A model generated the notes under the pieces. The model was not told the origin of the DNA, did not search any database, and saw only the letters and a list, made by a program, of their open reading frames with translations. From Cladochytrium replicatum (lineage: Eukaryota > Chytridiomycota > Chytridiomycetes > Cladochytriales > Cladochytriaceae), in assembly GCA_025526935.1 (NCBI GenBank), contig JAHLKD010000007.1, positions 186,001-250,000 on the forward strand: DNA of 64,000 bases, written 5' to 3'. The translations under genes and the position numbers were made by a program. Shown here piece after piece: positions 1,470-49,170 of the stretch. Within the stretch, counting starts at the first letter, position 1, and the number at the start of each line of letters is the position of its first letter.

Positions 1470-2050
1470 TGTCCACGCGGACACTTTCCAAGAAGACGCA
1501 ATATAAGTTTTGTATGTATCAAACAATTTTGCATCACAACGGACATCGAGGCATGTATTTTCTGTCCACCCGGACACTTTCTCAACTCATTGACGTACTT
1601 CAGTTATCTCTACCCAATACAACTAACCTCTCTATCAATGTTACTAGCAATAAGATTCTGTCCACCCGGACACTTTCTTAACTCATTGACGGTACTTGAG
1701 TGATCTCTATCAAGTACAACTAACATCTCTATCAATGTTACTAGCAATAAAATTATGTCCACCCGGACACTTTCTCAACTCATTGACGGTACTTCAGTGA
1801 TCTCTATCAAGTACAGCTAACCTCTCTATCAATGTTACTAGCAATAGGATTCTGTCCACCCGGACACTTTCTCAACTCATTGACGTACTTCAGTTATCTC
1901 TACCCAGTACAACTAACCTCTATCAATGTTACTAGCAATACGATTCTGTCCACCCGGACACTTTCCAAGAAGTCACAACGGAAGTTCTGTAACAAACAAT
2001 TTCTACCACGACAGACCTCGAGAGCTGTGCTTTCTGTGCACCTGGACATT
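1470..2050 (+). repeat. Left ~97-bp repeat array of the hAT (6-7 units, plus orientation)
   Basis: A motif CTGTCCACCCGGACACTTTC (first and some later copies have CACG in the centre) recurs near 1471, 1561, 1659, 1757, 1855 and 1949, with a degenerate copy near 2036. Units are about 90-98 bp and share a tail with TACTTCAGT and CTCTATCAATGTTACTAGCA. TGTCC and GGACA form 5-bp inverted arms around four central bases, like a dimeric protein binding site. The array ends just upstream of the transposase start codon, so it also forms the promoter region of that gene. Confidence 0.9.
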
Positions 2051-2085
2051 AGAGTCGGTAACGTTCCAGCCACACCACAGCAAAA

Positions 2086-4520
2086 ATGGACGCCGCCTTT
2101 GTTAAACCAAAGCGTAAGGCAGCGTCCGACGCAAGCCAAAGACTAGTGGACAGTCATCCGCTTGACACACGGAAGCGAAGTCTGCCAGCCCCCCAAATTT
2201 CAGAGGCGTCCAGCGAGGGGAACATCATGCAGGACAAACGCAGACGTGTATCAGGACACTGTGGCAACAACAGCGCTCGAGAGCCGAGCTCCACATCTTC
2301 TTCCAATGACTCCAGCGAGTTGGGCCCGGCTTCTCAGCATGCACCACAGCTTCCTGCCGACGTTAGTTTTGCTGACTCTTCAGTGCGACAGGAGCCTGCA
2401 GCTGGATCAGTTCAACCATCAATGCTTTCATCAGACGCAGATGTTGATAGCATGTCGGACTGTAGAGGTAGTCAAGGCGGCATAGCGAAGGATTACTATA
2501 AGGTTGATAATGGTCTGAGAACATGTTTGGTTGCGAAATGCAAGTGGAGCCAGAAGGTCGATAAGATGGGATCAACAAAAAACTTCCTCCGGCATCTGAA
2601 AAACCACCATGGAAGTATTGCCAGGTCGCTTGGACTGTTGGACATCGTCCCCAAGGGACAACATACATTGAATTTCGGCTCACAGGAGAAGGAGCAAAAC
2701 TTTGTGTTCAATCCAGACGTAGCGTGGCGGTCGATTTTGGACTGGATTGCTGCAGACAATCAGGCTTTTACTGTTGTGGAGAACGAGTTCTTTGTCAGCA
2801 TGCTGAAGACTTTTCAGCCAAACTATACACCAAAGTCGGTAAAAGCAGTGAAGCAAAAGGAGATGGATCTTTACGATAGGCAGAAGGAGCTCGTTAAAGG
2901 TCTGATTGTTGGTTCGCCTTCAAAAGTATCAATAACAGCTGACTGTTGGACATCAAAGAACCAGATTTCTTTTCTTGGAATTACTGCCCACTTCATCACG
3001 AAAGAATGGGAGCCGCAGGACTTGCTGCTGCAGATGATTCCGATGGTTGGAAAGCATGAAGGTGTCGCCATGGCTAATCAGCTTGTCAAGTGTCTGGATG
3101 AATTTGGCATGCTATCAGGTGAACGCTTATTGTGCATTACAACCGACAACGGTTCAAACAACTTTACCATGAGTGCTAAGCTGGAGACGCTCTTGGAAGA
3201 TAGGGATATTGCGTGGTCTGCAGAAACTCAACACATGCGGTGTATGGCACACATTATCAATCTTGCAGCAAAGGATTTTATCGATACATTCGCGCCTGCA
3301 GGGGCACAGTCGCAAATGACGATAACTCCGGCGTTAATGTCATAAACCTTCTTCGACGGCTAGTCAGAGGAATCCGGTCTTCCCCAAAACGAAGAAGCTC
3401 ATTTATTGATTCGTGCCAATTTGTGAAACTCGTTCCTCTATTACCAATTATCAATGTGACAACTCGCTGGAATAGCACGTTCTATATGGTCAAACGAGCC
3501 TTACAGCTACGAGAGGCAATGGACAAAATATGCTGGATTGAAGATTCTTTGAAAGATTGGTCAATAAATCCAAAGCAATGGGAGGTCCTACAGAAGATCC
3601 GGGATGGTTTGAGTGTTTTCGAGGTTATATCAAAGGCAATCGAAGGGTCTAGATATCCAACACTTCCGCTTGTTATTCCATTTTACAACGATCTTATCGA
3701 TCAACTGGAGGACCTAGAGGATGCAGAATTAGATGAAACTTTCACCAAAGCATTTCGAAATGCACTAGATAAGCTGAGAATATATTACTCAATCGCTAAG
3801 AGCCCGTGTTTAGCAGTTGCTACGGTACTCGATCCTCGTTTTAAGGATCAATATTATCGATTTTCAAAGGCTTGGGAGAAAGATGTAGGAAGGGATCAGG
3901 TCACCCTAGTGCGGAAAGTCTGGGAGGAATCGTATAAGTCACGGAAAATCAAGAACAGTGGTGCCGATGTTTTTGGAAACACGCCAGAACGTCGACACGA
4001 TTCGAGCGGAGCTTCCGGTGATAGACAGAAAAAAACGGACGCTGAACGCTTGAGAGCCATTAGATCCGTTTTCATCTGGCAAGAAGAGATTCCTGAGGAA
4101 AAAGATGAGCTGGATCGCTATCTTGGCGATCAGGTACTCCGCGGTATTGATTCTGATGGGAAGCCAATCAATATTATGGACTGGTGGAAGACCGTTGGAA
4201 GTGTGAACTTTCCAGCCCTAAGCCAGATGGCAATGGACTATTTAGGAATACCAGCAACAAGCGCTCCAGTCGAACGAAAGTTTTCAGCCGGGGTTGATTT
4301 GGTACCTGCAACTCGCAACCGCCTTGCTCCAAGAACAATAAATGCGTTGATGTGCCGTCATGACTGGTTGCATCAATTGAGTGCTGAAGAACCGTTCAAA
4401 AATGATTCCCTAGATTCAAAAAGTGATGTTAGTGAGGATTTTGTAAAGGTGCATAATTTTGGCGAGGATTTTGATGTGGTATTAGAGTTGGAAGCAACTG
4501 ATGATAACCCACTCTTTTAA
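2086..4520 (+). pseudogene. hAT-family transposase (BED zinc finger, RNase H-like core, hATC domain), frameshifted
   Basis: The start ATG (AAAAATGGAC) follows the left repeat array. The first 419 codons hold a basic, Ser-rich N-terminus and a BED-type zinc finger near residues 145-180 (CLVAKC then HLKNHH). Next come RNase H-like segments with TADCWTS and CITTDNGSNN, which carry candidate catalytic aspartates, and CMAHIINLA, typical of hAT. The frame closes at 3345, but a second frame from about 3303 to 4520 continues with LLRRLV, TTRWNSTFYM and the C-terminal dimerisation domain (SAPVERKFSAG, candidate catalytic Glu). The two parts join by a -1 or +2 shift between about 3300 and 3338. No intron with GT and AG ends fits the gap. 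It is either a recent inactivating indel or a sequence error. Confidence 0.88.
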
Positions 4521-4559
4521 ATATAAATTGTTGTTTAGACTGTTCATCTGTTGAAGTAC

Positions 4560-6156
4560 CGTCCAGGAGTTGAGAAAGCGACCGCCTGGACAGAATCCTA
4601 TTACAAGTAGTATTTGTAGAGAGGTTGGTTGTACTTGATCGAGATCAGTGAAGTATCAGTGAAGTACCGTCAATGAGTTGAGAAAGTGTCCGGGTGGACA
4701 GAATCTTATTGCTAGTAACATTATTAGAGAGGTTAGCTGTACTTGATAGAGATCACTGAAGTACCGTCAATGAGTTGAGAAAGTGTCCGGGTGGACAGAA
4801 TCCTATTGCTAGTAACATTGATAGAGAGGTTAGTTGTATTGGGTAGAGATCACTGAAGTACCGTCAATGAGTTGAGAAAGTGTCCTGGGTGGACAGAATC
4901 CTATTGCTAGTAGTATTTGTAGAGAGGTTAGCTGTACCTGATAGAGATTACTGAAGTACCGTCAATGAGTTGAGAAAGTGTCCGGGTGGACAGAATCGTA
5001 TTGCTAGTAACATTGATAGAGAGGTTAGCTGTATTGGGTAGAGATAACTGAAGTACGTCAATGAGTTGAGAAAGTGTCCGGGTGGACAGAATCTTATTGC
5101 TAGTAACATTGATAGAGATGTTAGTTTGTACTTGATAGAGATCACTCAAGTACCGTCAATGAGTTAAGAAAGTGTCCGGGTGGACAGAATCTTATTGCTA
5201 GTAACATTGATAGAGAGGTTAGCTGTACTTGATAGAGATCACTGAAGTACCGTCAATGAGTTGAGAAAGTGTCCGGGTGGACATAATTTTATTGCTAGTA
5301 ACATTGATAGAGATGTTAGTTGTACTTGATAGAGATCACTCAAGTACCGTCAATGAGTTAAGAAAGTGTCCGGGTGGACAGAATCTTATTGCTAGTAACA
5401 TTGATAGAGAGGTTAGTTGTATTGGGTAGAGATCACTGAAGTACGTCAATGAGTTGAGAAAGTGTCCGGGTGGACAGAATCGTATTGCTAGTAACATTGA
5501 TAGAGAGGTTAGTTGTATTGGGTAGAGATCACTGAAGTACCGTAAATGAGTTGAGAAAGTGTCCGGGTGGACAGAATCCTATTGCTAGTAGTATTTGTAG
5601 AGAGGTTAGCTGTACCTGATAGAGATTACTGAAGTACCGTCAATGAGTTGAGAAAGTGTCCGGGTGGACAGAATCGTATTGCTAGTAACATTGATAGAGA
5701 GGTTAGTTGTATTGGGTAGAGATCACTGAAGTACCGTCAATGAGTTGAGAAAGTGTCCGGGTGGACAGAATCGTATTGCTAGTAACATTGATAGAGAGGT
5801 TAGTTGTATTGGGTAGAGATCACTGAAGTACCGTAAATGAGTTGAGAAAGTGTCCGGGTGGACAGAATCTTATTGCTAGTAACATTGATAGAGAGGTTAG
5901 TTGTATTGGGTAGAGATCACTGAAGTACCGTCAATGAGTTGAGAAAGTGTCCGGGTGGACAGAATCGTATTGCTAGTAACATTGATAGAGAGGTTAGTTG
6001 TATTGGGTAGAGATCACTGAAGTACCGTCAATGAGTTGAGAAAGTGTCCGGGTGGACAGAATCCTATTGCTAGTAGTATTTGTAGAGAGGTTAGCTGTAC
6101 CTGATAGAGATTACTGAAGTACCGTCAATGAGTTGAGAAAGTGTCCGGGTGGACAG
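4560..6156 (-). repeat. Long ~97-bp repeat array of the hAT (about 17 units, minus orientation)
   Basis: GTGTCCGGGTGGACAGAATC repeats about every 97 bp from 4686 to 6150, with unit starts near 4688, 4785, 4882, 4980, 5076, 5174, 5271 and so on, plus one diverged unit near 4573 (CGACCGCCTGGACAG). These are the left-array units in reverse orientation, so the transposase gene lies between inverted arrays. Units differ by a few substitutions and fall into sub-types (for example CCTATTGCTAGTAGTATTTG against CGTATTGCTAGTAACATTGA). The sub-types occur in a higher-order order that suggests segmental amplification. Short open frames across the array arise from the repeat itself and are not genes. Confidence 0.92.
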
Positions 6157-6203
6157 AAATCTGGGAGACTGAGTGTCACTGTGTCTGTCTGGGTAGAATA
6201 GGA

Positions 6204-6442
6204 TTCTGTCCCCCCGGACACTTTCTCAACTCATTGACGGTACTTCAGTAATTTCTATCAGGTACAGCTAACCTCTCTATTAATGTTACTAGCAATAAGA
6301 TTCTGTCCACCCGGACACTTTCTCAACTCATTTACGGTACTTCAGTGATCTCTATCAAGTACAGCTAACCTCTCTATCAATTTTACTAGCAATAAGATTC
6401 TGTCCACCCGGACAGAATCCTCTCTATCAATGTTACTAGCCA
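6204..6442 (+). repeat. Third block of the ~97-bp repeat (3 units, plus orientation)
   Basis: Three units return to plus orientation, with cores near 6208 (CTGTCCCCCCGGACAC), 6302 and 6400, separated from the minus array by about 40 unrelated bases (6157-6200). The last unit is truncated and runs into the promoter region of the second transposon gene. The switch gives the element a second inverted junction that could fold into a hairpin. Confidence 0.85.
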
Positions 6443-6581
6443 GTTTCTTCCCTAGCTTATTATTATTTTCAGATCGGGTAGAAAACTATAGTGTCAGGGA
6501 AGTATTATAGCATACATTCCTGCAACATTCCGGCTAAGAACACCGGGCCAGTATCTTCCCACGACAAACAGTACAAACACC

Positions 6582-8264
6582 ATGCCTCGAACTACAAAGA
6601 AGCGAGCGTTAAAACAATCCAGACCATCATCTGAAAGAGAATCAAGTGCAGAACCTGTGACTGCACCTGAAACATCTCTGGCATCGGGTTCTGAAGTGGA
6701 AGCAGAAGAAGTTGGCCTTGATGTCAAATCGACAGATGTCAAATCGACAGCTCCTTCAAAGAAACCGGCGCGACGTGGTACTAAAGGGGATGCTGACTAT
6801 TTGCTCATCGACGGACTCTGTCCTGCTTCAGACATACGACTTTGGTATCGAAAATTCAAAGCGAGCGGCCACAGCTACGACTCGGAGGCCTTCATCAGCA
6901 ACTGTCAAACAAATCGTGATGAATGCGGCCCAAGATTTGTTCTTCAAGGGTTGATCGACCGACTTAACTCTGACAGCAAGCTAGTTCGTCAAGCCCTGAA
7001 CGAAATTCACGATGAATGCAGTGGACGAACGGAGTTCATAACAGCAGCAAACGCCTATCGTATGGAGTGCTTGAAAAGCTCTTCCTTTCAGAAGGAAACA
7101 ACATTTCTGGACTTTTACAGGCGGCAGGGACACAAGTACGGCATTTACAGAGGAATGCCCGTCACTGCAAAGGTTGATGAGTTCCAAGCGACCATCAAAC
7201 GAGCAGATGAGGACCGTGAAAGGACAAAACAGGTCCTCAAACAGTCAGAACGACTGTTGAACATGACAAAAGATCTTGAAGAGACTGCAATGAACGAGAG
7301 AAGGACCCGCATCGCAGCAGAAGTGCGAGAGAAGGCTCTCATTGATGAATTGGGCAGGGCGGGTGCATTGATTCAGCACGGCGAGCACGAAGAGCTAGCA
7401 AGATTCAGGGAGATCACCGCCGCAATGGAAAGGGAGAAGCAGGCAACTTCCCAGGAGATTTCACAATGGAAATCACGTGTGACCGCCCTGGAGGGAGAGC
7501 TTGCTGCTCTGAAACGACAGGCTGGTCATTCAGAAGCTGCAGCACCTGCGGCGCCAACATCAACAGGCGGCCTAATAAGCATATCGTCGGCTATCAAGGG
7601 GATTGGTAGAATTCCGAAGGTACATCGAACCAGTTCTCCAACGAGTTCCCTTGCATTGCTTAGCCTGCAGCAGCATCGTCGTACGGCTATCCTTTTGGTG
7701 AAAGAGGTCATCCAGGGTATCTGCTTCCAGATGCATAAGATCAATGAGGTTATTTATGACCTTAAATTGCCGTCTCTTCCACCAGCAATCAAGTACGTCA
7801 ATGTAAACTACGAAGTCCTCTCCCGAAATGAGTTTTTACGGCCCATATTTGTTGAATCAGACGACCGCTCAAGCCGAATATCAACTTCAAGTAGCAGTTC
7901 TCGGAGCAGCCTTACTCTTCTTAGGGTGCACATTTTGCTCGGAAACTGGATACGGCACAATAATTCGCTAAGTACGTCTGCCACTATCTATCGCATGTTC
8001 AGGGCATTAGTGGATGCATATCCTTCTGAGTGGCTAAGGTTCTGGACGGCATACATCGGGCATCTTTCGTCCATAACGCTCCCTGAGGTGGATTGGAAAC
8101 CTTGGAAGACAGGTTTAGCCAAGGATTTCATGCTTTCAAATGACGACATTGATCGGTTCATCAGGACTGGGTTGGCGAAGGACGTAACCAGTGGTGGATG
8201 GGACTCTGACGATATGAACCAGATACAGAAGCTGATTTGGGCTGTTCCACCTATCAACTTGTGA
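6582..8264 (+). CDS. Second hAT gene: 560-residue coiled-coil protein of unknown function
   Basis: A single uninterrupted frame starts at CACCATGCC. The first 70 residues are Ser/Thr/Lys-rich with KKRALKQ and KKPARRG, nuclear-localisation-like. Residues about 75-190 form a mixed region with Trp, Tyr and Cys residues (LWYRKFKASG, FLDFYRRQG). Residues about 200-320 are strongly heptad-like (RERTKQVLKQ, EEELARF-type Glu/Lys/Arg-rich runs), a predicted coiled coil. A low-complexity Thr/Ser linker and a helical C-terminal third with several Trp residues follow. I do not recognise a family. The gene lies inside the transposon borders, downstream of the repeat arrays, so it is probably carried by the element. 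It may bind DNA or partner the transposase, but it could be a captured host gene. The intact frame beside a broken transposase is notable. Confidence 0.75.
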   Translation: MPRTTKKRALKQSRPSSERESSAEPVTAPETSLASGSEVEAEEVGLDVKSTDVKSTAPSKKPARRGTKGDADYLLIDGLCPASDIRLWYRKFKASGHSYDSEAFISNCQTNRDECGPRFVLQGLIDRLNSDSKLVRQALNEIHDECSGRTEFITAANAYRMECLKSSSFQKETTFLDFYRRQGHKYGIYRGMPVTAKVDEFQATIKRADEDRERTKQVLKQSERLLNMTKDLEETAMNERRTRIAAEVREKALIDELGRAGALIQHGEHEELARFREITAAMEREKQATSQEISQWKSRVTALEGELAALKRQAGHSEAAAPAAPTSTGGLISISSAIKGIGRIPKVHRTSSPTSSLALLSLQQHRRTAILLVKEVIQGICFQMHKINEVIYDLKLPSLPPAIKYVNVNYEVLSRNEFLRPIFVESDDRSSRISTSSSSSRSSLTLLRVHILLGNWIRHNNSLSTSATIYRMFRALVDAYPSEWLRFWTAYIGHLSSITLPEVDWKPWKTGLAKDFMLSNDDIDRFIRTGLAKDVTSGGWDSDDMNQIQKLIWAVPPINL

Positions 8265-8395
8265 TTGCTCAGTGGAGGTTTGTTTCTTTTTACGATAGTG
8301 TTTCTAAAATACACACTGTCCACACAGACACAAAGTGTTCATGTAAATATCCGTGGTCTAACTCAAAATTCAATCAATCCTCTCCTGGGCAGCAA

Positions 8396-8564
8396 AAACC
8401 CGGCGGGTCAGGGTCGGGTACGGGTTTCAACCACTTCGGGTCCGGGTATTCCCTTTGTACCCGTCAGTGACCCGGCGGGTCCCCAGACAAACACGACCCG
8501 ACCCAAAGGGTTTGGTGCGGGTCGCCACTGAAACCCGGACCCGACCCGGACCCGCCGAACCTTA
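8396..8564 (-). repeat. Right subterminal CGGGT-rich zone of the hAT
   Basis: Dense CGGGT/GGGTC and GACCC units lie before the right terminal repeat, ending GGACCCGCCGAACCTTA. The bases match the right half of the miniature element at 24300-24458, including CCCCAGACA and ACACGACC. A degenerate core motif (CTGTCCACACAGACAC) lies just inside, near 8317. Confidence 0.8.
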
Positions 8565-38647: not shown

Positions 38648-41600
38648 TCACTTTAGAGGAGCATTAGGGCCTCGCGAGCTGGAAGTATTTGCTAACGCAA
38701 CACGCTGCCCCCCTGGGACTCTCGGCACAGGCATAGATCGAGGACGGTCGCTCGAAGGTGCGCCTTCTTCTGCAACTTCAGCAGCACCAGTTACTGGCTG
38801 GGCCGCCTTTCCGTCGGAGCTCAACAAGATCGGGGCCATGATTGCCAACGGCGAGACGACGGGCGATTGATGCGGAAGTGCAATCTGAGAAGCCAAGTTT
38901 GGCATCAAGGTGCGTTGCACAGACGCACCCAAGTTCTGGTTGGACGATGGAGCAGAGAGAGATTTCCCAGATTTTCCGGGCGGTGGTGGCGGAAGTGGTT
39001 GCTGTGGAGGCGGGTGTGTAAACGCCCATGGGTAGATGGCAACAGCGGCTGGGACAACTTGTGGGTATGCAATCTTGCCGTTGGGAAGCTGAAGGAATGA
39101 TGGAGGCATTGAAGGTCCACCGAATGTAGTGAAATCGAAAGAGTTCGGAATTCCCGGCTCTGATCCCGCATCTGAGAAGAAATCATAGTCGCTAGTCGCT
39201 GAACGAACGGAAGAGCGTGACGACGCAACGGACGCGGCTCCTGCGCCTCCCGACCGACCAGATGCAACAGATGCCGATGCAACAGAACGCATCATCCTCT
39301 TGGCTGCGGCGGACAGCTCGAGCTTTTCTATACGCTTTAGCAGTTCCTCAATAACCTTGTCCCGTGTCTCAGAAAGTGCTGAAATGTTCTCTGCATGCAG
39401 CTTCACTTCCCAGTTCTGGGCCGTCACCCTTTCAAGTTCCTCTCGTGCATGTTCAAGCCTTAACTCAAGCTCAGCGATGGTCTCCTCCTGCGTTTGCTGA
39501 ATCGCCGTGGCAAAGGAAAGCTCTGAAACAAGCGCAAGCGCGTCACGCTCCGGAGTTTCAAATTCTGTCTGACTGCCAATATCCCTCAAAAGAACATATT
39601 CTTCTAACAGCTCACTAACATTTCCACTGTCAACCATCGGTGTATCTGGCCTCGCTGCGCCAATCACCGTTGGGCTAACGGACCTAGCCAGTTCCTCCGA
39701 GACTTCTTCGAGCTCTTGTTGCATCATGGTATTCTCTTGATCAAGCGAAGCCAAATGATCTCGAACACGGTCCCTCTCTTCTTCCAAAAGCGCCATCTCT
39801 CGCTGCAGATCTTCATTAGCAGCGTGCAGATCCAGCACTTTCTGCTCCAATTCTTGTACTTGACGCGCTGTAGTGCTGATCGCCTGTTGCATGTAAGAGT
39901 CTCGAGCACGAAGTCGTGCTTCAGTATCCTTTACTCGATTTTCGAGCATTCGGGCCTTCTCTTCGTTCTCTTCAGACCGCGCGGCAGATTCAAGTACCTC
40001 CGGAGCTGCCAAGCGTGCCTGCAACAACGACTGGGTAAGGTGGTAATCGACTGTGAGCTGCCCCAGCTGTCGGTAAAGCTCTGCGTTCTCGACTGAGCTC
40101 TGTGGAGTTTGGCTCAACGACGACGGAGAGAACTCTACGCTAGCATAACGCCTCATGCCAGGCTGGCTTTGACCTGGAAGGTAAACGATTAAGCAAACTT
40201 TCATAGCGACAGGTTACTACGCTCACCTTGAATATCTCGGCTTTGAGTTGAAAAAATATCATCCTTCTCTCGTGACCGCTGATCCATTTGAATGGGATCG
40301 GCGTAGGTGGTAGATGAAGCCATCGACATTGTCCTAGTGCGTTCAGACGGAGCGCCGAGCTCGCGAGGAGCAGATTGAACGTACGTCGTCGCGATCGCCT
40401 GGTACTCGGTGGACCGTTCAGTCGCTGCTCTGACGAGAACTGAAATTTGATCTGACAACTCCCGGATTTTGTCATCCTTGCTTCGCACGGACTCCTCGAA
40501 TTTCTTTTCAGCAAGGCGGACCTTTTCTTGGAGGTCGCGGACAATGTGGTGATGAACGGCGTCTTTCTTCTCTACTTCCATCTTCGCCGTCGCCAAAACA
40601 TCAGCCATTTTGCGCTCAGACAATGCAACATCTGCCCTAAGCCTTTCAACTTCCGCGCGAAGTGACACCAATTCTCGATCGCTTGCTCCAAGCTTGTCGG
40701 CCGCGTCTGCACTGCCCCTCGTGAGTGTGAAATAGTCAGACTCAAGCTCCACAATGCGAGCTTCATTGCTTTTGATCTTATTCTGGAGCAATTCCAATGC
40801 GCGCCTATGTTCCGCGGACTCCTGCTCCTTTTCGCGAACAGCCTTTTCGATTGCTACTTCATGCTTCTCGACTGCAGTGAGCAGTTCGTTTCTCAAACGG
40901 CCTGCTTCTGCCTTCGCAGCTTCCACATCACGTTCTCGTTTCGACACATCGCCCGCCATTTCATCAGCCTGATGGACTTTTGACTTCACATCAGCATCAG
41001 CAAGCAAGATCCGCTCCTTCAACTCGGCTACTTCCTTCGCGCGATCCGCCTTTTCCAACTCGACCGCACCCTCGGCTGCAATCTTTTGCTGAGCTAGTTC
41101 CTCAACTCGTGCTCGCAAACGCTCAACGGCAACCATGTCATCTTGTTTTGCTCGCTTCAAAACTGCCAGCTCCCGCCGGACTCGATCATGGTCAACTTTA
41201 AGATTCGACAAGTGTCCTTTGAGTGCATCCTTGAACTCGCTGACCTCCTGACGACGCGCGAGTTCAGCTTCCGACGTAGCGGCTTGCAGAAGGTGGTGGT
41301 CAAGTATCTCTTGATGCAAACGAGCTCCAAACTCATTATGTTCCACTGACCTTTCCACACGCTGCACAACGACTTCCAGCGATTGAGAGAGATGGTGGTC
41401 CACCAGCTCCTGATGGAATCGGATCTTCATCGACTCCCCATCTTCACGGGACTTCATCACTTCAGCTTTCAGCGTTTCCACGTCGCTCTTCTGTGCAGCA
41501 GCAGCCTCAGACGCGAACGAAAGCATCAGGTGATGATCAATTAGCTCTTGATGATACCGCGAGTCTGTAACTATAACGACTGTGGTGTCATCATTGGAAC

Positions 41601-44600
41601 TCTCTTTCGCTTCACCAGTAATTCTTGGGAAGGACAATGCCCAATGCAAGTCGACCACACCCTGGTGTACTGTTGCCCTCAGCCTCTCCAGCTCCCTTTC
41701 CCTCTGACCAACCATCTCCACCAAAATCTGCGTGGTTTCCTCTCGCTCCCTCTCCGACTCATCCAGCATCATCCGCGCCTCCTCCAGCTCACCCTGAATC
41801 GCCTCCACGTATGCCTTTTGTTCTCGATTTGACTCCAGAATCCTCTCCACGTCCTTGCGAGCGTTCGCAAGATCCTGCGTCAAACTTTCAATCTTCTCGT
41901 CGTTCTGCTGCATTTCGTCGCCAAGTGTCTCGGTATCACTCAAAGCAGCTGCAAGTCGAGCTTCTAGATCCAAAATTAGTGACTCGTAAATTTCCAATGG
42001 TGCGGCCGGTGTGTCGTTCACGCCCCCACCCAGTGGAGCGTTCCAATCTTCATTCTCCTCACTCCCCATCTCCATAATGTCCTCCTCAATTGATGCAGGT
42101 AGAGGAAGCGCGGCTTGCCGCTTTTGGATGATCACAAGCGATGCTTTATACCTGGTCTTCAACTCGGACATCTGTTCCTTCACAACCTCCACTTTCGCAT
42201 TAAGTCGGATAGCATCTTCGGCAGCATATGACTCTGCAAGGTGCTGGTCAATTAAAAGTTGGTGAGCTTTTACGAAAAGACGCGTGTATTCCCGGGATGC
42301 ACCAATCTCAAACGCGTGCAGCCTAGAGAGTGCATCGTCACGAGCAGACTCGGCTTCAGTGAGTGAGTACTCCAAACTGGCCGACTGATCTATCAACTCG
42401 CCCTCTCGCATCTCCGCATTGCGAACCTGGTCGACAAGCACATCGATCTGGTCCCGCAGTTGCTCAATCTGTTCGCTGAGCCTACGCGCTTCGTCATTCG
42501 CGATCTCTAAGAGCTCCTCCTTGTCCTGGATGGCCTCGTTCAACGACAATAACTCGTCCCGGTGCCCTTGAATGAACACCTCCATATCGGCCATCTGTTC
42601 TTCCGCCGTTTGGTATGCCCGATTGACAGACTGCAAACGGTTCTGAAGGTCGTTGGTTTCCGCAATCAAAGAGATCTGCTTCTGAGTCATTGCTGAAATG
42701 GTCCGTTCTAGTTCCCCAACGAGCCCACGATGAGTTCGCTCGAGCTCTTCACGTTCATTCTGAGCTGTTGTCCGATAATCGTTGAGAGCACGCTCGTGCA
42801 ACTCAGCCAGCGATTGCTCCGCGCCATTCCTTCGAAGACGCTCATTATCAAGCTCCATAACCAAGTTCTGAACTTTGTAGCTGTGCTCCTTAACCATCGC
42901 TTCCAACTTCTCCGTCAGCTCCTCGACGTTGGCGACAAGCCTGTCGTTGCTCGCGTTGGCTTCTTTGAGCATTGTCTCCCGATCTTCTCCTTCTTGCTCA
43001 AGCATCGAAACTCTCGCAGCAAGCTCACGCCTCTTGGATTGAAGCTGCTCGTGTTCAAGTTCCAGCTCGGTTAGAGAATGCTCCAACTTGCGGCGGTCTT
43101 GCTCGAGCTGTGTCTTCTCTTCAATGAGACGATCGATCAACTTTTGCCGCCCCTCGGCCACACTCGACTCTTGGGACGCGAGCTCACCAGCGGCAGCCTC
43201 CATATCCGCGATCCGCTTCTCCAACATCGCAATTTCTTCCTCCGCTTCTCGTTTCAAAGCCATTGCTTCGCCTTCATACTCTTGCGCTGCACGTGCGGCA
43301 TCATTTCGGGCACACTCAAGCTCAATGGTCATGGTGTGCACTTCCTTACGCAGCCGTGCCTCTGTCGCAGACGCTTCGGAAAGCAACCGGTCAAGCTTTT
43401 CTTCGAAAGTCGCTTTCACGTTGACCTTCTGCTTCTCCCGGTCTTCTACCGTTGCGTTAAGCCTCTCGACTTCCTCCCGCATCGTCTGGATCTCCATGTC
43501 AGCACGTACCAACGCCGCAGCTTTCTGCTTCAATACTTCGTCGAGACGCATAGCAGACTCAATTGTGATCTGCTGGATCGACGCTTCCATCGTCTCACGC
43601 ATCCGCTCCTTGTCCGCCTTATGGTCGAGCTCTTTCCTCAACAAATCCTCTTTCATGCGCGCAAGATCCGCTCGAAACTCCTGAAGCTCTCCGGTCGATC
43701 GTTCACCAAGGGCCGCACGCTCTCTCACAAGCTCCGCGAGCTGTGCCTGGCTATCCGCATGGTCTGCTCGTGCTCGCTCAAGCCTGGACTGCAGTTCCTC
43801 CGCCAAGAGCTTAGCCTCTTCCTGCTCCCGCTCATGCCGGCTCCGCATCTCCTTCACAACTCGGTTGTGCTCCGAAGTTCGTTTCTCGATTTCGCGACGT
43901 GCCTGGTGAAGTTCCTCCTCCTGCATCACAAGCGTGGCATCTTTTTCCTCCAGCTGGATATTGAGCTGCTGAATCTTCTCACGCAGCTCACGCTCGACCG
44001 TCTCGAGCCGGGCGCGCATCGTTTCGACCTGTCCTCGCTGCTCCTTCGAAATATTATCGAGCTTCCCACGGTGTTCAGAGCGAGCTCCCTCCATTTCCTC
44101 TTTGTGCACCAACACGCGTCGCTCCATTTCCTCAGCGAGATCTCGCTTCTCTCGCTCTGCACGCGCAATCTTCAACTCGGCCTCGTGCATCGCAAGCCTG
44201 TGTTCTGAAGCAGCATCATCAGCGCGTCTAACTGCCTCCACAAACTCCAGTGTGCGCTCTTCCAGACGACGCCTCAGATCCTTTATGTCACGCTCGTACC
44301 GTTTTGTCGCTTCGGTGTACCGCACTCTTGCAGCTTCAAGGTCCTCCAGCGATCGTTGGTGCGCCGCAGTAGCATGCTCATGTCGAGCTGCAGCCTCGGC
44401 TAACTCTGCATCATACTGCCACATACGTTTCTCAAAGTCTGACGTGTTCGCTCGACCCAGTGAGATGGCATCCGAGTGCTGACGTGATACATCTTCCAGT
44501 TTAGAACGAAGGTCCTCAATCGTCGCTTCGTGCTGCGCTCGAGATGCAGCGAACGCTGCACTACTCGCCTCCGCATCCGCAACAGCCTTGGTATACTCCT

Positions 44601-47600
44601 CAGAGACTTGGTCAAGCAACGCGGTTAGCTCCGCAGCTTTGGCTTGCTGCTCGCGCAACGTCTGCGCATGCTTCCGTGCAGCCTCTTCAGAGGCCGCCAC
44701 AGCACGCTCATACGCCTCTCTCTGCGTATGCACGTCCTTAGTAAGCCGGCTCTTCATCAACTCGGCAGCGGCTCTGTCGTGCTCTCCACGACTGCGTTCG
44801 TCAGCAAGCATCTGCTCCAACTCGCGGAGCTGGGCCATCAAACTCGCCTCCATCGAAGAAGCGGTGCTCCGCTCACGCTTTCCTCGTGCATTTTCATCTG
44901 AAAGCTTCTGCTTTGTTTCTTCAAGCTCAGCCAAAAGTTTCGCCTCACTGGCTTCGGCGTCCTTGCGCCCGCGCTCTCCGTGATGCTGCTCAGCCGCGAG
45001 CTTCCCACGCACACTCACGAGATCCGCGATTAGTTGCTCTTCAGTCGATGCCAAATTAGTCCGGAGGACTTCTGCATTTTCGCGCTCCGACCCGAGCCTT
45101 TGCTCGACTTCGCGAAGGTTGGCAAGTAAGGACGCTTCGGCCGTAGCCGCTGCAGCCATGTTTCGCTCTGATCGCTGCCTCTCTACGGAGAGCTCCTCCT
45201 CGATGTCGCGTATACGACCCGTCATCCACTCTTGCATCTCATTCGAAGCAACCCGATCACGATCGCTGCGCTCCTGCTCCGCCAATAGTATCGCCTCGAT
45301 TTTTCGAAGCTCGGCATTCAGCTGAGCTTGAGTCGCCTCAGCAGCCTTCCGATCATGCTCTCCACGTTCTATCTCATCTGCCAGCTTGCCCTCGACTTCG
45401 AGCAGTAAATCGTTCAACTGTGCTTCCATAGTGTCAGCCGCCTCCTTTGCACGTTGCCTGCAAGCAATTTCGGCTTCTAAGCTCGCCTCGACCTTCTGCT
45501 TCTGTTCAAGCAATTCCGCCTCCCTCTTTCTGGCTTTGCTCCAATCCTGATGCCCAGTTGCAATCTCTTCCTGAAGCTTCCTTTGAATGTCAGACAGTTG
45601 TGCAGTGAGCTCTGCTTTCACGTCAGCAGCCGCTTTCTGTTCTTGGGCTCTTTGCAAAGCCTCAGCGTCAAGCTTGCTCTTCACATCTTGTAGCTGAGAT
45701 TCCAGAGAAGTTCGCGCATCGATTGCAGCAGTGTGCTCACGCCCTGCACGCGCTTTTTCCTCTGCAAGCGTTTTACTTGTGGTTTCCAGCTGGGTAGAGA
45801 GAGCTGCTTCTGTAGTAGAAGCCGTCTCACGATCACGCTTGCTTCGTCCCATTTCGCTGCGCAACGATTCTCTGAGCTCGTGGAGTTCACTTTCAAACTT
45901 GCTCGCTGCGGCTGCAGTTGCCGCTCGGTCCTGTTCGCCACGTGCTTGCTCGGAGGATAGTCGCTCCTGAACTTCTTTTAGTTCGCCAAGTAATTTCTCC
46001 TCCATCGCAGCGGCGTTCGCTCTGTCCCGCGAGCCACGATCGTTCTCAGATGCAAGACGCTCCTCGATCACTCGAGCTTTCTCCTGCAAAGCAGCTTCGT
46101 TCGCTGCAGCAGACTCGCGATCACGCACAGCGCGCTCCCGCTCGCGAGAGAGCTCCTTCTCAATCTCTACGATCCTCATGCTCATCTGCTTCTTAAGTTC
46201 AGCGGCAGCAGCGCGGTCCTTCTCGCCTCGCGCTCGCTCCTCGCTAAGCTTCAACTCGACATCCCTGACCGACTTCTCAAGCGCCTTGACCGTCTCAGCT
46301 GCAACTGTCCTATCTTTTTCTCCTTGAGCTTTCTCAGCAACAAGCATTCCTTCGACACTCCTAAGTTGTCCGAGGTACCCCTCCGCAACCCTCCTCTCCA
46401 ACTCCTTCTGCTCCTCCATCGTCATACGAAGCGCTTCCATCCGGTCTTTCAGCCCCGCAACACGTTGCTCGTATACCTCGCCCTCCGAAATGCGTTTCTG
46501 CTCGACTTCCATTGCAAATGTCTCTTGGAGCTGGTTGTTCACAGCCATCTGGCCCAGCTCACGTTCGCGATCGCGCAAAAACGCCTCGAGGGCACTGGAG
46601 TGGGAGGCGTGAGCTCGTCGCTCGCGCTCGGAAGCTTCCTCGAGCGCGGCCAGATCGTCACGAAGCGTCGCAATGACGTGTGTGTGTTCTTCGATCGAGT
46701 GCTGGAGCACATCCACGGTCTCTTTGTTCGCGACGGCGTCGTTTTGATGGAGGGACATAGTGTAATGGTAGTCGGAGAGCTGCTGGGAATACATTTGCAG
46801 AACGGATTCGAGGCGAGCTTCGATCTCGGCCTTTTGGGATTTAAGACGAAGGTTGTTGTCTTTGAGTGTGCTGATTAGGAGTTGCTCGGCTACGCCTTCG
46901 GCGACCGCGGAATGGTAGTCGATGAGAGTCTGGTTTGCGTATTGCTGGAAAGCAAGTGCTGCATTCTCCGCTTCAACTGCTCGAGATTCAGATTCTACAT
47001 CGAAAGATTAGCAACTACAAAAAATCTGGCGAGTCAGGGAGTTAACCATATTTGACCCGTCTCAATTCGTCCTGAACGCTGATTAGTATTAGCTTCATCT
47101 TTTCGACTTTGGCGTGGTCTTCAATAGTATTTGATTTCACATTGTTCTTGATCTGTCGAGCTCGTGCTGCGTAACGCAGCGTACTCAACGTCTCGAACAA
47201 ATCATCGTGCGCCGGAGAAACACACGCAATCATGAGCGTTTGGCTTCAGAAGTAGGAAATGTTAGTAAAAACAAACACGACGATATGATCCACCTTACCT
47301 ATTTCCACCCAGCGAATCTTTCAGGATTCGGGTGAGTTTGGAATTTCTATATGGGATATGAACTTCTTGCGGCGGCTGCGACACTGCTGCAATCTTTGCT
47401 TTTATTGACATTCCCGATCCACCATCTTCCTTCTCATGGTTGGGAGCTGCCATATCTCGATCAGCTAGTGCGGAAATAACTTTCCCGAGAGCCAGCAAGC
47501 CACCGTTGATCGAAATTCCTTCTTTCTGTCTGTCACCCGTCGCGTTCGTCCGCTTAAGACGCTCGGAGCCGGCAAGATCGACGAAATGGAACTTGGACAG

Positions 47601-49170
47601 CGATGTTACGGTACGTACAATGTGGCGTGCTTCTGGCATGTGCGTCACGTCGACAGTCAGCGGGACGTAGTGTTTCTGCTGGTACAGGTGAAGAGTTAGG
47701 ATTGCGTGAGATCGCGAGGATTGTTCGTTCATGACGGTCGAGGAGGTTCGACGAAGTGTGGTGCCTTTGTTCAGGTACCTGGGTAAAGGAATATCGTAAG
47801 CACAAGCTCATGATTCTGCAAATTACTGGTCTTACTTTAGCACATCGTCGACAGTTGCACATGCTTTCTCCTCAAGACCAGCAACATAAATCGAACCATC
47901 CTTCGCATCTCGGATCATGATTCCTTTCTCGCCATGAGCACCGGTAGATTTCGGCTTCTTCCTTTGCACCGCATTCTTTGCTGCAAACGAGCCGTTCCAC
48001 TCTGGCAACTTTGGCGCAGCTCCAGGAGTTAGCTCCTCTGGCGCTGGTGGATCCGCAAGCAAATCAACTAGATCTTCATTGTACAGCTCCAAGAACGAGA
48101 TCTTCACCGCGTAGGTCATGTAAAGGTTTGCAGTGGGATCATCCGAGAGCCGACGATTGCGGTTAAGCGTTTCGAAGATGTATCGCCCTGCACGTGGGAT
48201 TATACCAAGTTTTGCACGGAGAGACGAGTCAGTAGATGGGAGGGTCATTGCTGAGGAGGTCTCCGCAGAACCCATTGTAAATGTCTTTCCGGATCCGGTC
48301 TGTCCAAAAAAGGTTTTAGAGCTGGTACGTTTGGTTGTCTAACCTTCAACATACCTGACCATAAGCCAAGACAGTGGCGTTGAAACCATTGAGGAACTTT
48401 TCAATCAATGGTTGCGTACACTCGAATAAATCCTCTTGCGAGGCATCGTCATTATATACATGGTCGAATGTGAACGCCTGGTACTCTTTCCGTGCCGTAG
48501 CTCCGGGAATAGCGGATGCACTTCCACCGAAGAACGTGTCCGGGGTGGGCATAGCGAGAATCGGTGACGGAGGTGGAGAAGCGCCGGTCTCGCCCAGTGT
48601 GGCACCATCAGCAGCAGCAGCAGCAGGAGGAACATCTTTTTCTTTTGCAGCAGCTCCAGGCACCACAGGGTCCCTCGCAACAGCCTCGACAATGGTCACA
48701 GTAGTTGGGTCCGTTGGGTCCACACGAACAGCCAGTTTCGAAAGGCGGGCAACCTCCCCAGAAGAGAGGGGTCTAATACGTAAGGCAACCTGTACAGAGC
48801 TGCAGAGATGAGGGTTTGCGGGCGGGACCGGACCTTTTAGAGCGGCATGTGAGGGTGTTGGAGATATAGCTGCGGAGTACTCAGAAGGTGGCGATTGCGG
48901 TTCCGATGGTGGTACGGGAGAAGAGAGAGCAGAGGAGACGATAGATTCTGCAATGCTCTGCTTTCTTGCATACAGTGGTTGCGAAGATGATGGAACTGCC
49001 GGTGCAGATGATAGGGGTTTTGTTGTTGTGGTTGTCCGTTTTGGCAGACCAGACTTCGCCGTCGAGCGAATGGGCGTAGGGATTGACACGCTCACAGCCG
49101 GAGAGGCCGTCCGCCGCGACGACACGGAGGGTTTCATCGAGTCTTGAGCCTCGAATTGTGTGTTCGGCAC
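38648..49170 (-). CDS. Giant kinesin-4-like motor with a ~2,750-residue coiled-coil tail (3,416 aa, 6 exons)
   Basis: Minus-strand exons are 49170-48355, 48299-47836, 47778-47299, 47243-47047, 46994-40227 and 40173-38648; they sum to 3,417 codons with stop and all phases agree. A Ser/Pro-rich leader of about 125 residues precedes the motor ([27 protein letters not shown]-loop [14 protein letters not shown] across an intron, [56 protein letters not shown]). Motor order and [11 protein letters not shown] context fit kinesin-4 (KIF4/KIF21) best. The tail is coiled coil, including 17 uninterrupted 32-residue repeats (residues about 858-1401) and seven dispersed [LIV]-x-D-x-H-L-like motifs. The C-terminus is Ser-rich with a [13 protein letters not shown] run. 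The role is presumably plus-end microtubule motility or microtubule-length control; the cargo is unknown. It is about three times the usual kinesin-4 length. Confidence 0.92.
44749..46380 (-). repeat. 17 tandem 96-bp (32-residue) repeats in the kinesin tail
   Basis: Translated on the minus strand, 17 consecutive blocks of exactly 32 residues align without gaps. Each has a leucine-rich start (xL..xLxxVExxL), a central (A/S)ExxRGExDR and a small-residue end (AAxxxEA). Examples are [13 protein letters not shown]..., [13 protein letters not shown]... and [13 protein letters not shown].... DNA identity between units is modest, so the repeat is old and kept by selection at the protein level. A length of 32 equals three heptads plus one hendecad. 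Confidence 0.9.

Follow-up and report, generated by a model that had tools for sequence, protein, structure and literature searches.

The stretch of DNA analyzed here (the window; 64,000 nucleotides) carries a minus-strand kinesin gene that we modeled as six exons encoding a protein of 3405 residues and 381 kDa (Table 1). Exon borders were placed at splice sites that two copies of the gene have in common, the start codon is the modeled one, and the C-terminal end of the model is the first stop. Pfam PF00225 scored over its cutoff on three upstream exons, bearing out the kinesin identity suggested in an earlier note on this DNA, and the fourth exon matched in a genome search. The P-loop, SSRSH, and DLAGSE motifs, which are marks of the kinesin superfamily, are visible in the translation and place the protein in it.

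Table 1. Coordinates of the kinesin gene, its repeat array, and other tail features in the window
Feature	Position in window	Strand	Content and basis
Exon 1	48355..49137	-	N-terminal extension and first motor part; Pfam; 3' end conserved between copies
Exon 2	47836..48299	-	Motor, from P-loop; Pfam and copy comparison
Exon 3	47299..47778	-	Motor, switch regions; Pfam and copy comparison
Exon 4	47047..47243	-	Motor end and neck; PF00225-type match in genome search, copy comparison
Exon 5	40227..46994	-	Coiled-coil stalk, including the array
Exon 6	38648..40173	-	More coil and proline-rich C terminus
Array of 17 gapless 32-residue units	44749..46380	-	Residues 847-1390 of the gene model, inside exon 5
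Coil after array, structure control	42817..44748	-	Residues 1391-2034; period 3.57 over 1391-1934
Cluster of four QxxxDxH motifs	41293..41664	-	Residues 2419-2542

When the spliced motor was compared with PDB sequences, the top scores among the best 60 of 152 matches were those of 7x4n (252 bits; titled a kinesin-like protein, which we take to be the kinesin-4 KLP-12), KIF4 (3zfc; 218 bits), and KIF7 (6mlq; 214 bits), followed by kinesin-5 (188 bits). Because this order places 7x4n, KIF4, and KIF7 ahead of kinesin-5, kinesin-4 appears to be the best label for the motor, as judged from a similarity ranking rather than a tree. Kinesin-4 subfamilies carry recognized tail domains, such as the WD40 domain of KIF21. 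Exon 5 has no Pfam family at 1e-3, and exon 6 has no such domain and only sub-threshold MAD/tropomyosin coil matches; a missing tail domain bears on the subfamily and not on kinesin-4 as a whole. The 50.5-Mb genome contains 100 exon-level kinesin-domain matches. It also matches the intraflagellar transport proteins IFT57 and IFT46 over their cutoffs, and on these matches was taken to be that of a ciliated eukaryote, presumably a zoosporic fungus; in control genomes the IFT57 model responds, below cutoff, in 3 of 14 and the IFT46 model in 0 of 14.

The 17-unit array and its duplicate

From 46380 down to 44749, the minus strand encodes 544 residues, or 17 × 32, uninterrupted by a stop or gap; the plus strand holds stops. 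The interval, unit number, and lack of indels were all as first claimed, and the strand can now be added. Self-identity of the array at lags 32, 64, 96, and 128 is 0.33, 0.29, 0.30, and 0.28, and the runner-up among lags 1 to 129 reaches 0.14; in shuffled arrays (n = 300), the top identity over lags 5 to 129 was 0.152. At lag 32 there are 169 identities, compared to 50.7 ± 6.5 in 5000 shuffles (z = 18). Each of the 17 units fits a profile of the other 16 best at offset 0. In this leave-one-out comparison, 13 units score at least 19 bits; units 8 to 10 score 14.5 to 15.5 bits, which does not surpass the highest maximum from 200 shuffles (15.5 bits; the maxima averaged 2.9), and unit 7 is weak (5.3 bits). 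The 17-unit profile found no extra unit of at least 6 bits among starts lying over 16 residues beyond either end of the array.

Mean pairwise identity between units is 0.315 for protein and 0.453 for DNA, and a DNA-level tandem search did not list the region, in keeping with old, diverged units. Recent turnover of units was considered and rejected: adjacent units are barely closer than distant ones (mean identity, 0.33 versus 0.26 to 0.38), and every unit matches its own counterpart in the other gene copy. An older duplication that copied a block of ten units is possible, but its signal is weak (p = 0.02 for protein and 0.05 for DNA by permutation).

That other copy, a diverged duplicate of the kinesin gene on contig C18, has kept all 17 units in the same order and gapless over 544 residues, and each of the 17 is closest to the same-numbered unit in its counterpart. 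Identity between the copies is 77.4% in the array, 87% before it, and 90% after it. Array and flanks look equally old, since dS between the copies is 0.72 to 0.75 in the array and in both flanks (two motor exons gave 0.47 and 1.04). The corresponding dN/dS values are 0.171 for the array, 0.077 before it, 0.047 after it, and, for the same two motor exons, 0.025 and 0.011; within the array, dN/dS is 0.052 at positions 2, 6, 9, and 13, 0.146 at positions 19 to 24, and 0.21 at positions 26 to 32 and those remaining. Length, phase, and core have been preserved, while surface residues drift.

The absence of gaps is by itself weak evidence: over the other 1718 aligned residues of the ORF that holds the array, gaps opened internally only 3 times, always within a single C-terminal stretch, so that about 0.95 events are expected in 544 residues and the chance of zero is about 0.39 by hand calculation, which is not significant. 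That 17 units remain in register at about 30% mutual identity is the stronger evidence for a held period.

The similarity between the two contigs extends beyond the gene. When C18:160001-249500 was compared with the window, positions 9557-64000 of the window matched C18:177-225 kb in mostly collinear order, with a local inversion near 26.8 to 31.8 kb, tandem gene copies, and no match of more than 150 bases listed at about 31.8 to 38.6 kb; this collinearity probably reflects a segmental or whole-genome duplication.

Coil geometry and predicted structure

Hydrophobicity in the array has its Fourier peak at 3.555 residues, or 32/9 (power of 39.2, compared to 1.8 at 3.5 and 0.3 at 11/3), which upholds the proposal that 32 residues comprise three heptads and a hendecad. 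In sequence, the array fits a coiled coil: its periodicity lies within 3.5 to 3.64, and proline is absent; the 544 residues include 20 glycines, 4 aromatics (F, W, Y), and 214 E, R, K, or D residues (39%). A core assignment by dynamic programming, whose residue scores and penalties we chose ourselves, gave each unit a single 4-4 stutter and no 3-3 step, in agreement with the one phase stutter per unit proposed earlier. This stutter falls at either of two places, ending at position 6 (11 cases) or position 17 (6 cases). A rival fixed core pattern with position 17 instead of 16 has a higher residue score (136 versus 120) but needs a 3-3 step, which makes the placement of the core in the polar half tentative. 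If the helix is straight with 3.60 to 3.65 residues per turn, the estimated supercoil pitch is 20 to 43 nm, compared to 13 to 19 nm for a heptad coil. With nine core turns and one stutter per unit, the supercoil would still be left-handed, wound about half as fast as a pure heptad coil.

Fourier peaks in the flanks lie at 3.525, 3.57, and 3.55, and 220-residue segments starting at residues 701 to 1781 give 3.545 to 3.59; over residues 1391 to 1934, power at exactly 32/9 is 6.0, compared to 31.5 at 3.57. Proline is absent from residue 587 to residue 2271. Because the flanking coil shares a similar mean period and this proline-free stretch, a stiff ruler distinct from the rest of the stalk is not supported; a coil of perhaps 1600 residues runs through this region, and the array is the part of it that is regular rather than a device of its own.

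The halves of each unit alternate between leucine-rich and polar, so that about half of each unit places polar, often charged residues in core register. By our assignment, position 20 lies in core register in 17 of 17 units and positions 16 and 23 in 11 of 17; position 20 is Gly, Ala, or Ser in 15 units. Charged residues make up 20% of core positions in the array, compared to 8 to 11% in three flank stretches, and the array has 9 runs of at least three polar core layers, compared to 1 in the preceding 206 residues, 1 in the following 544, and 0 in the next 336. The share of I, L, V, M, F, Y, and W at core positions (0.52) equals that of the preceding coil (0.53; after the array, 0.59 and 0.62), and the case for a weaker core therefore rests on charges and polar-layer runs. 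These putative polar joints argue against a uniformly stiff rod. The rod of about 80 nm foreseen in the earlier note keeps its length, at about 81 nm if fully helical, but with half of the core polar, uniform stiffness finds no support.

We modeled the array plus 50 residues on each side (644 residues) with AlphaFold, as a monomer from a two-row alignment, and took the best of five models. In this model, 630 of 644 residues are helical (mean pLDDT, 77.7; pTM, 0.28), forming helices 2-165, 170-325, 330-514, and 519-643, which are separated by three four-residue breaks at positions 20 to 23 of unit 4, 20 to 23 of unit 9, and 17 to 20 of unit 15. Modeled as a control, the 644 residues that follow the array likewise break three times, over 4, 8, and 7 residues (mean pLDDT, 75.7; pTM, 0.29), and pLDDT drops below 50 in four stretches, compared to none in the array model. 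Since the control breaks equally often, the number of breaks is nothing special, and only their placement at Gly20 is suggestive. In the monomer model of the array, helix is predicted almost throughout. The first 224 residues of the control (42817-44748) were modeled as two helices, 2-97 and 102-224, of about 90 pLDDT and joined at 98-101; these may fold back on each other as an antiparallel hairpin and not form a straight rod.

Possible roles of the array

We think it somewhat probable that the array serves as a spacer, semi-flexible and constrained in length. It would be one stretch of a coiled-coil stalk of great length, in a giant kinesin-4-like motor that is presumably a parallel dimer and in which each unit joins a short leucine zipper (L2, L6, V/I9, L13) to a polar, often Gly-containing joint (positions 16 to 24). 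Such a stalk would keep the motor heads at a set distance from a cargo or partner region at the C terminus, and selection would preserve its length and core and let surface residues drift. A more specific version is a long shot: the kinesin-4 stalk as a chain of equal segments, each a stiff zipper and a soft polar joint, spaced at 4.75 nm, with the stutter roughly halving the twist and the number 17 fixed by selection because it sets a distance or a compliance, such as one between microtubules or one along the zoospore axoneme. If unit number is selected, the duplicated gene pair would offer a natural test of whether a motor stalk is counted out in whole units and of the way in which regular stutters adjust stiffness; if it is not, the pair is still a clean case of a coil staying exactly in phase despite surface change.

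The same joints could instead make the array a foldable segmented hinge that bends at Gly20 and lets the tail reach the motor for autoinhibition, which we regard as unlikely. All three predicted helix breaks (units 4, 9, and 15) include Gly20, and the concentration of polar core-layer runs in the array, relative to the coil before it and to residues 1391-1934, speaks for bending; but the control coil of equal length breaks three times as well, the breaks come from the best of five models and may be caused by monomer modeling, and position 20 is Gly in only 9 of 17 units.

Periodic charges could also serve as an assembly ruler, with stalks lying side by side at a stagger of n × 4.75 nm or binding a repeating partner. 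The spacing of units is exact; Glu16, like Leu13, is invariant in all 34 units of the two gene copies; position 24 differs between the copies in just 1 of 17 unit pairs; and positions 19 to 24 evolve slightly more slowly than other noncore positions. RGE-DR patches at constant spacing, as described at first, are not what we found, however: the exact RGExDR form is confined to 4 of 17 units, and 11 satisfy a relaxed charge rule that asks for an acidic residue at 16, a basic one at 19, and either an acidic one at 23 or a basic one at 24. Moreover, the array evolves faster than its flanks, and Glu16 is in core register in 11 of 17 units, so that its invariance may be structural. The ruler is thus a possible reading that we do not favor and consider improbable; the spacer is the most likely. 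In the myosin rod, a 28-residue charge repeat is superposed on the coiled coil, a charge periodicity shared with the array; the units differ in length (28 versus 32 residues), and the comparison does not extend to filament assembly.

We consider it very doubtful that the array is a stable single alpha-helix rather than a dimeric coil: its E/R/K/D content and the polar residues in core register over about half of every unit would suit one, but the hydrophobic periodicity is strong and Leu, Val, or Ile is conserved at four positions. A helical-hairpin solenoid with two short helices per unit, as in TPR and PPR proteins, was rejected as scarcely credible, for although TPR and PPR units are of similar length (34 to 35 residues) and Gly20 could be a turn, the modeled helices are 125 to 185 residues long and cross units with no hairpin per unit, prolines are lacking and aromatics few, and exon 5 has no Pfam match at 1e-3.

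Related stalks and neighboring sequence

Within its own genome, the array was found only in the two gene copies (16 candidates scored). Among ORFs of at least 400 residues in the examined loci, lag 32 or 96 is best (0.15 to 0.20) only in these two copies, the best internal lag identity of the other ORFs being 0.08 to 0.14. The array matched no PDB sequence at E ≤ 1; viral contigs yielded 28 pattern-matching stretches, none of them a relative, and one 23-residue match when searched with motor exons.

No kinesin tail with 32-residue repeats was found at the abstract level of the open-access PMC literature, and the available portions of PMC13358043 and PMC8244899 contain nothing on repeats. The assertion that no kinesin is known with such a ruler-like tail nevertheless cannot stand as worded, since a published excerpt describes Leishmania infantum kinesin LINF_140017300 as having 3609 residues and 39-residue tandem blocks, some of them degenerate (PMC8480608). 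As far as that excerpt goes, the Leishmania K39-type kinesin shares with ours its giant size and its fixed-length, partly degenerate tandem units placed after a nonrepetitive part. A unit of 39 is four heptads plus 11, the same arithmetic as 32 with one more heptad. The units differ in length, and array identity at lag 39 is 0.119, compared to 0.33 at lag 32, so that the array lacks the K39-type unit. We regard the array as a stalk of known type that is unusual in its regularity, not as a new kind of machine.

Among fungal kinesin-4 proteins, Schcokin4 of S. commune is given 1978 to 2000 residues in the accessible part of its report (PMC8950801), making the present kinesin about 1400 residues longer. 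A review treats as spacers those coils that keep their length though not their sequence, and the 79-nm kinesin-5 rod resembles our stalk in being a long coil whose length is conserved more than its sequence; a fixed-length sequence unit is not among the features of length-conserved motor rods described in the accessible part of that review (PMC5082667).

The kinesin tail also contains the motif QxxxDxH, often as HQxLxDHHLxxS, nine times; 5000 shuffles averaged 0.23 occurrences and never gave more than 3. The sites are at residues 663, 712, 2220, 2419, 2457, 2503, 2536, 2936, and 3008 (window 46932-39824), and the last is least like the others. A stricter DNA pattern has 15 sites in the genome (3 for a backward control), of which 8 lie in the two gene copies and 7 elsewhere. 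Five of the outside sites, which we fetched (C9, C34, C38, C42, and C143), stand in frames of 20 to 134 residues with one motif each; the remaining two (C44 and C48) have a stop inside the pattern.

Toward the start of the window (1560-6414) lie three tandem arrays of a 97-bp repeat, with 4.2, 15.5, and 2.2 copies, of which the second runs opposite to the other two, and similar arrays occur on C18 near 230.6 to 231.1 kb. The first two arrays flank ORFs at 2062-4520, the second of which matches the hAT transposase dimerization domain. Compared with C18:230573-228440, window 7504-8564 is 98.5% identical and 6437-7503 is 90.2% identical, whereas most syntenic blocks are about 72 to 85% identical; window 6437-8564, whose ORF has no Pfam match, may be a more recent copy, perhaps mobile. 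On the far side of the kinesin gene, the middle to C-terminal part (residues 222 to 468) of the ORF at 53132-54829 matches the Pfam beta-lactamase family, and its N-terminal part presumably resembles an ABC1-type kinase.
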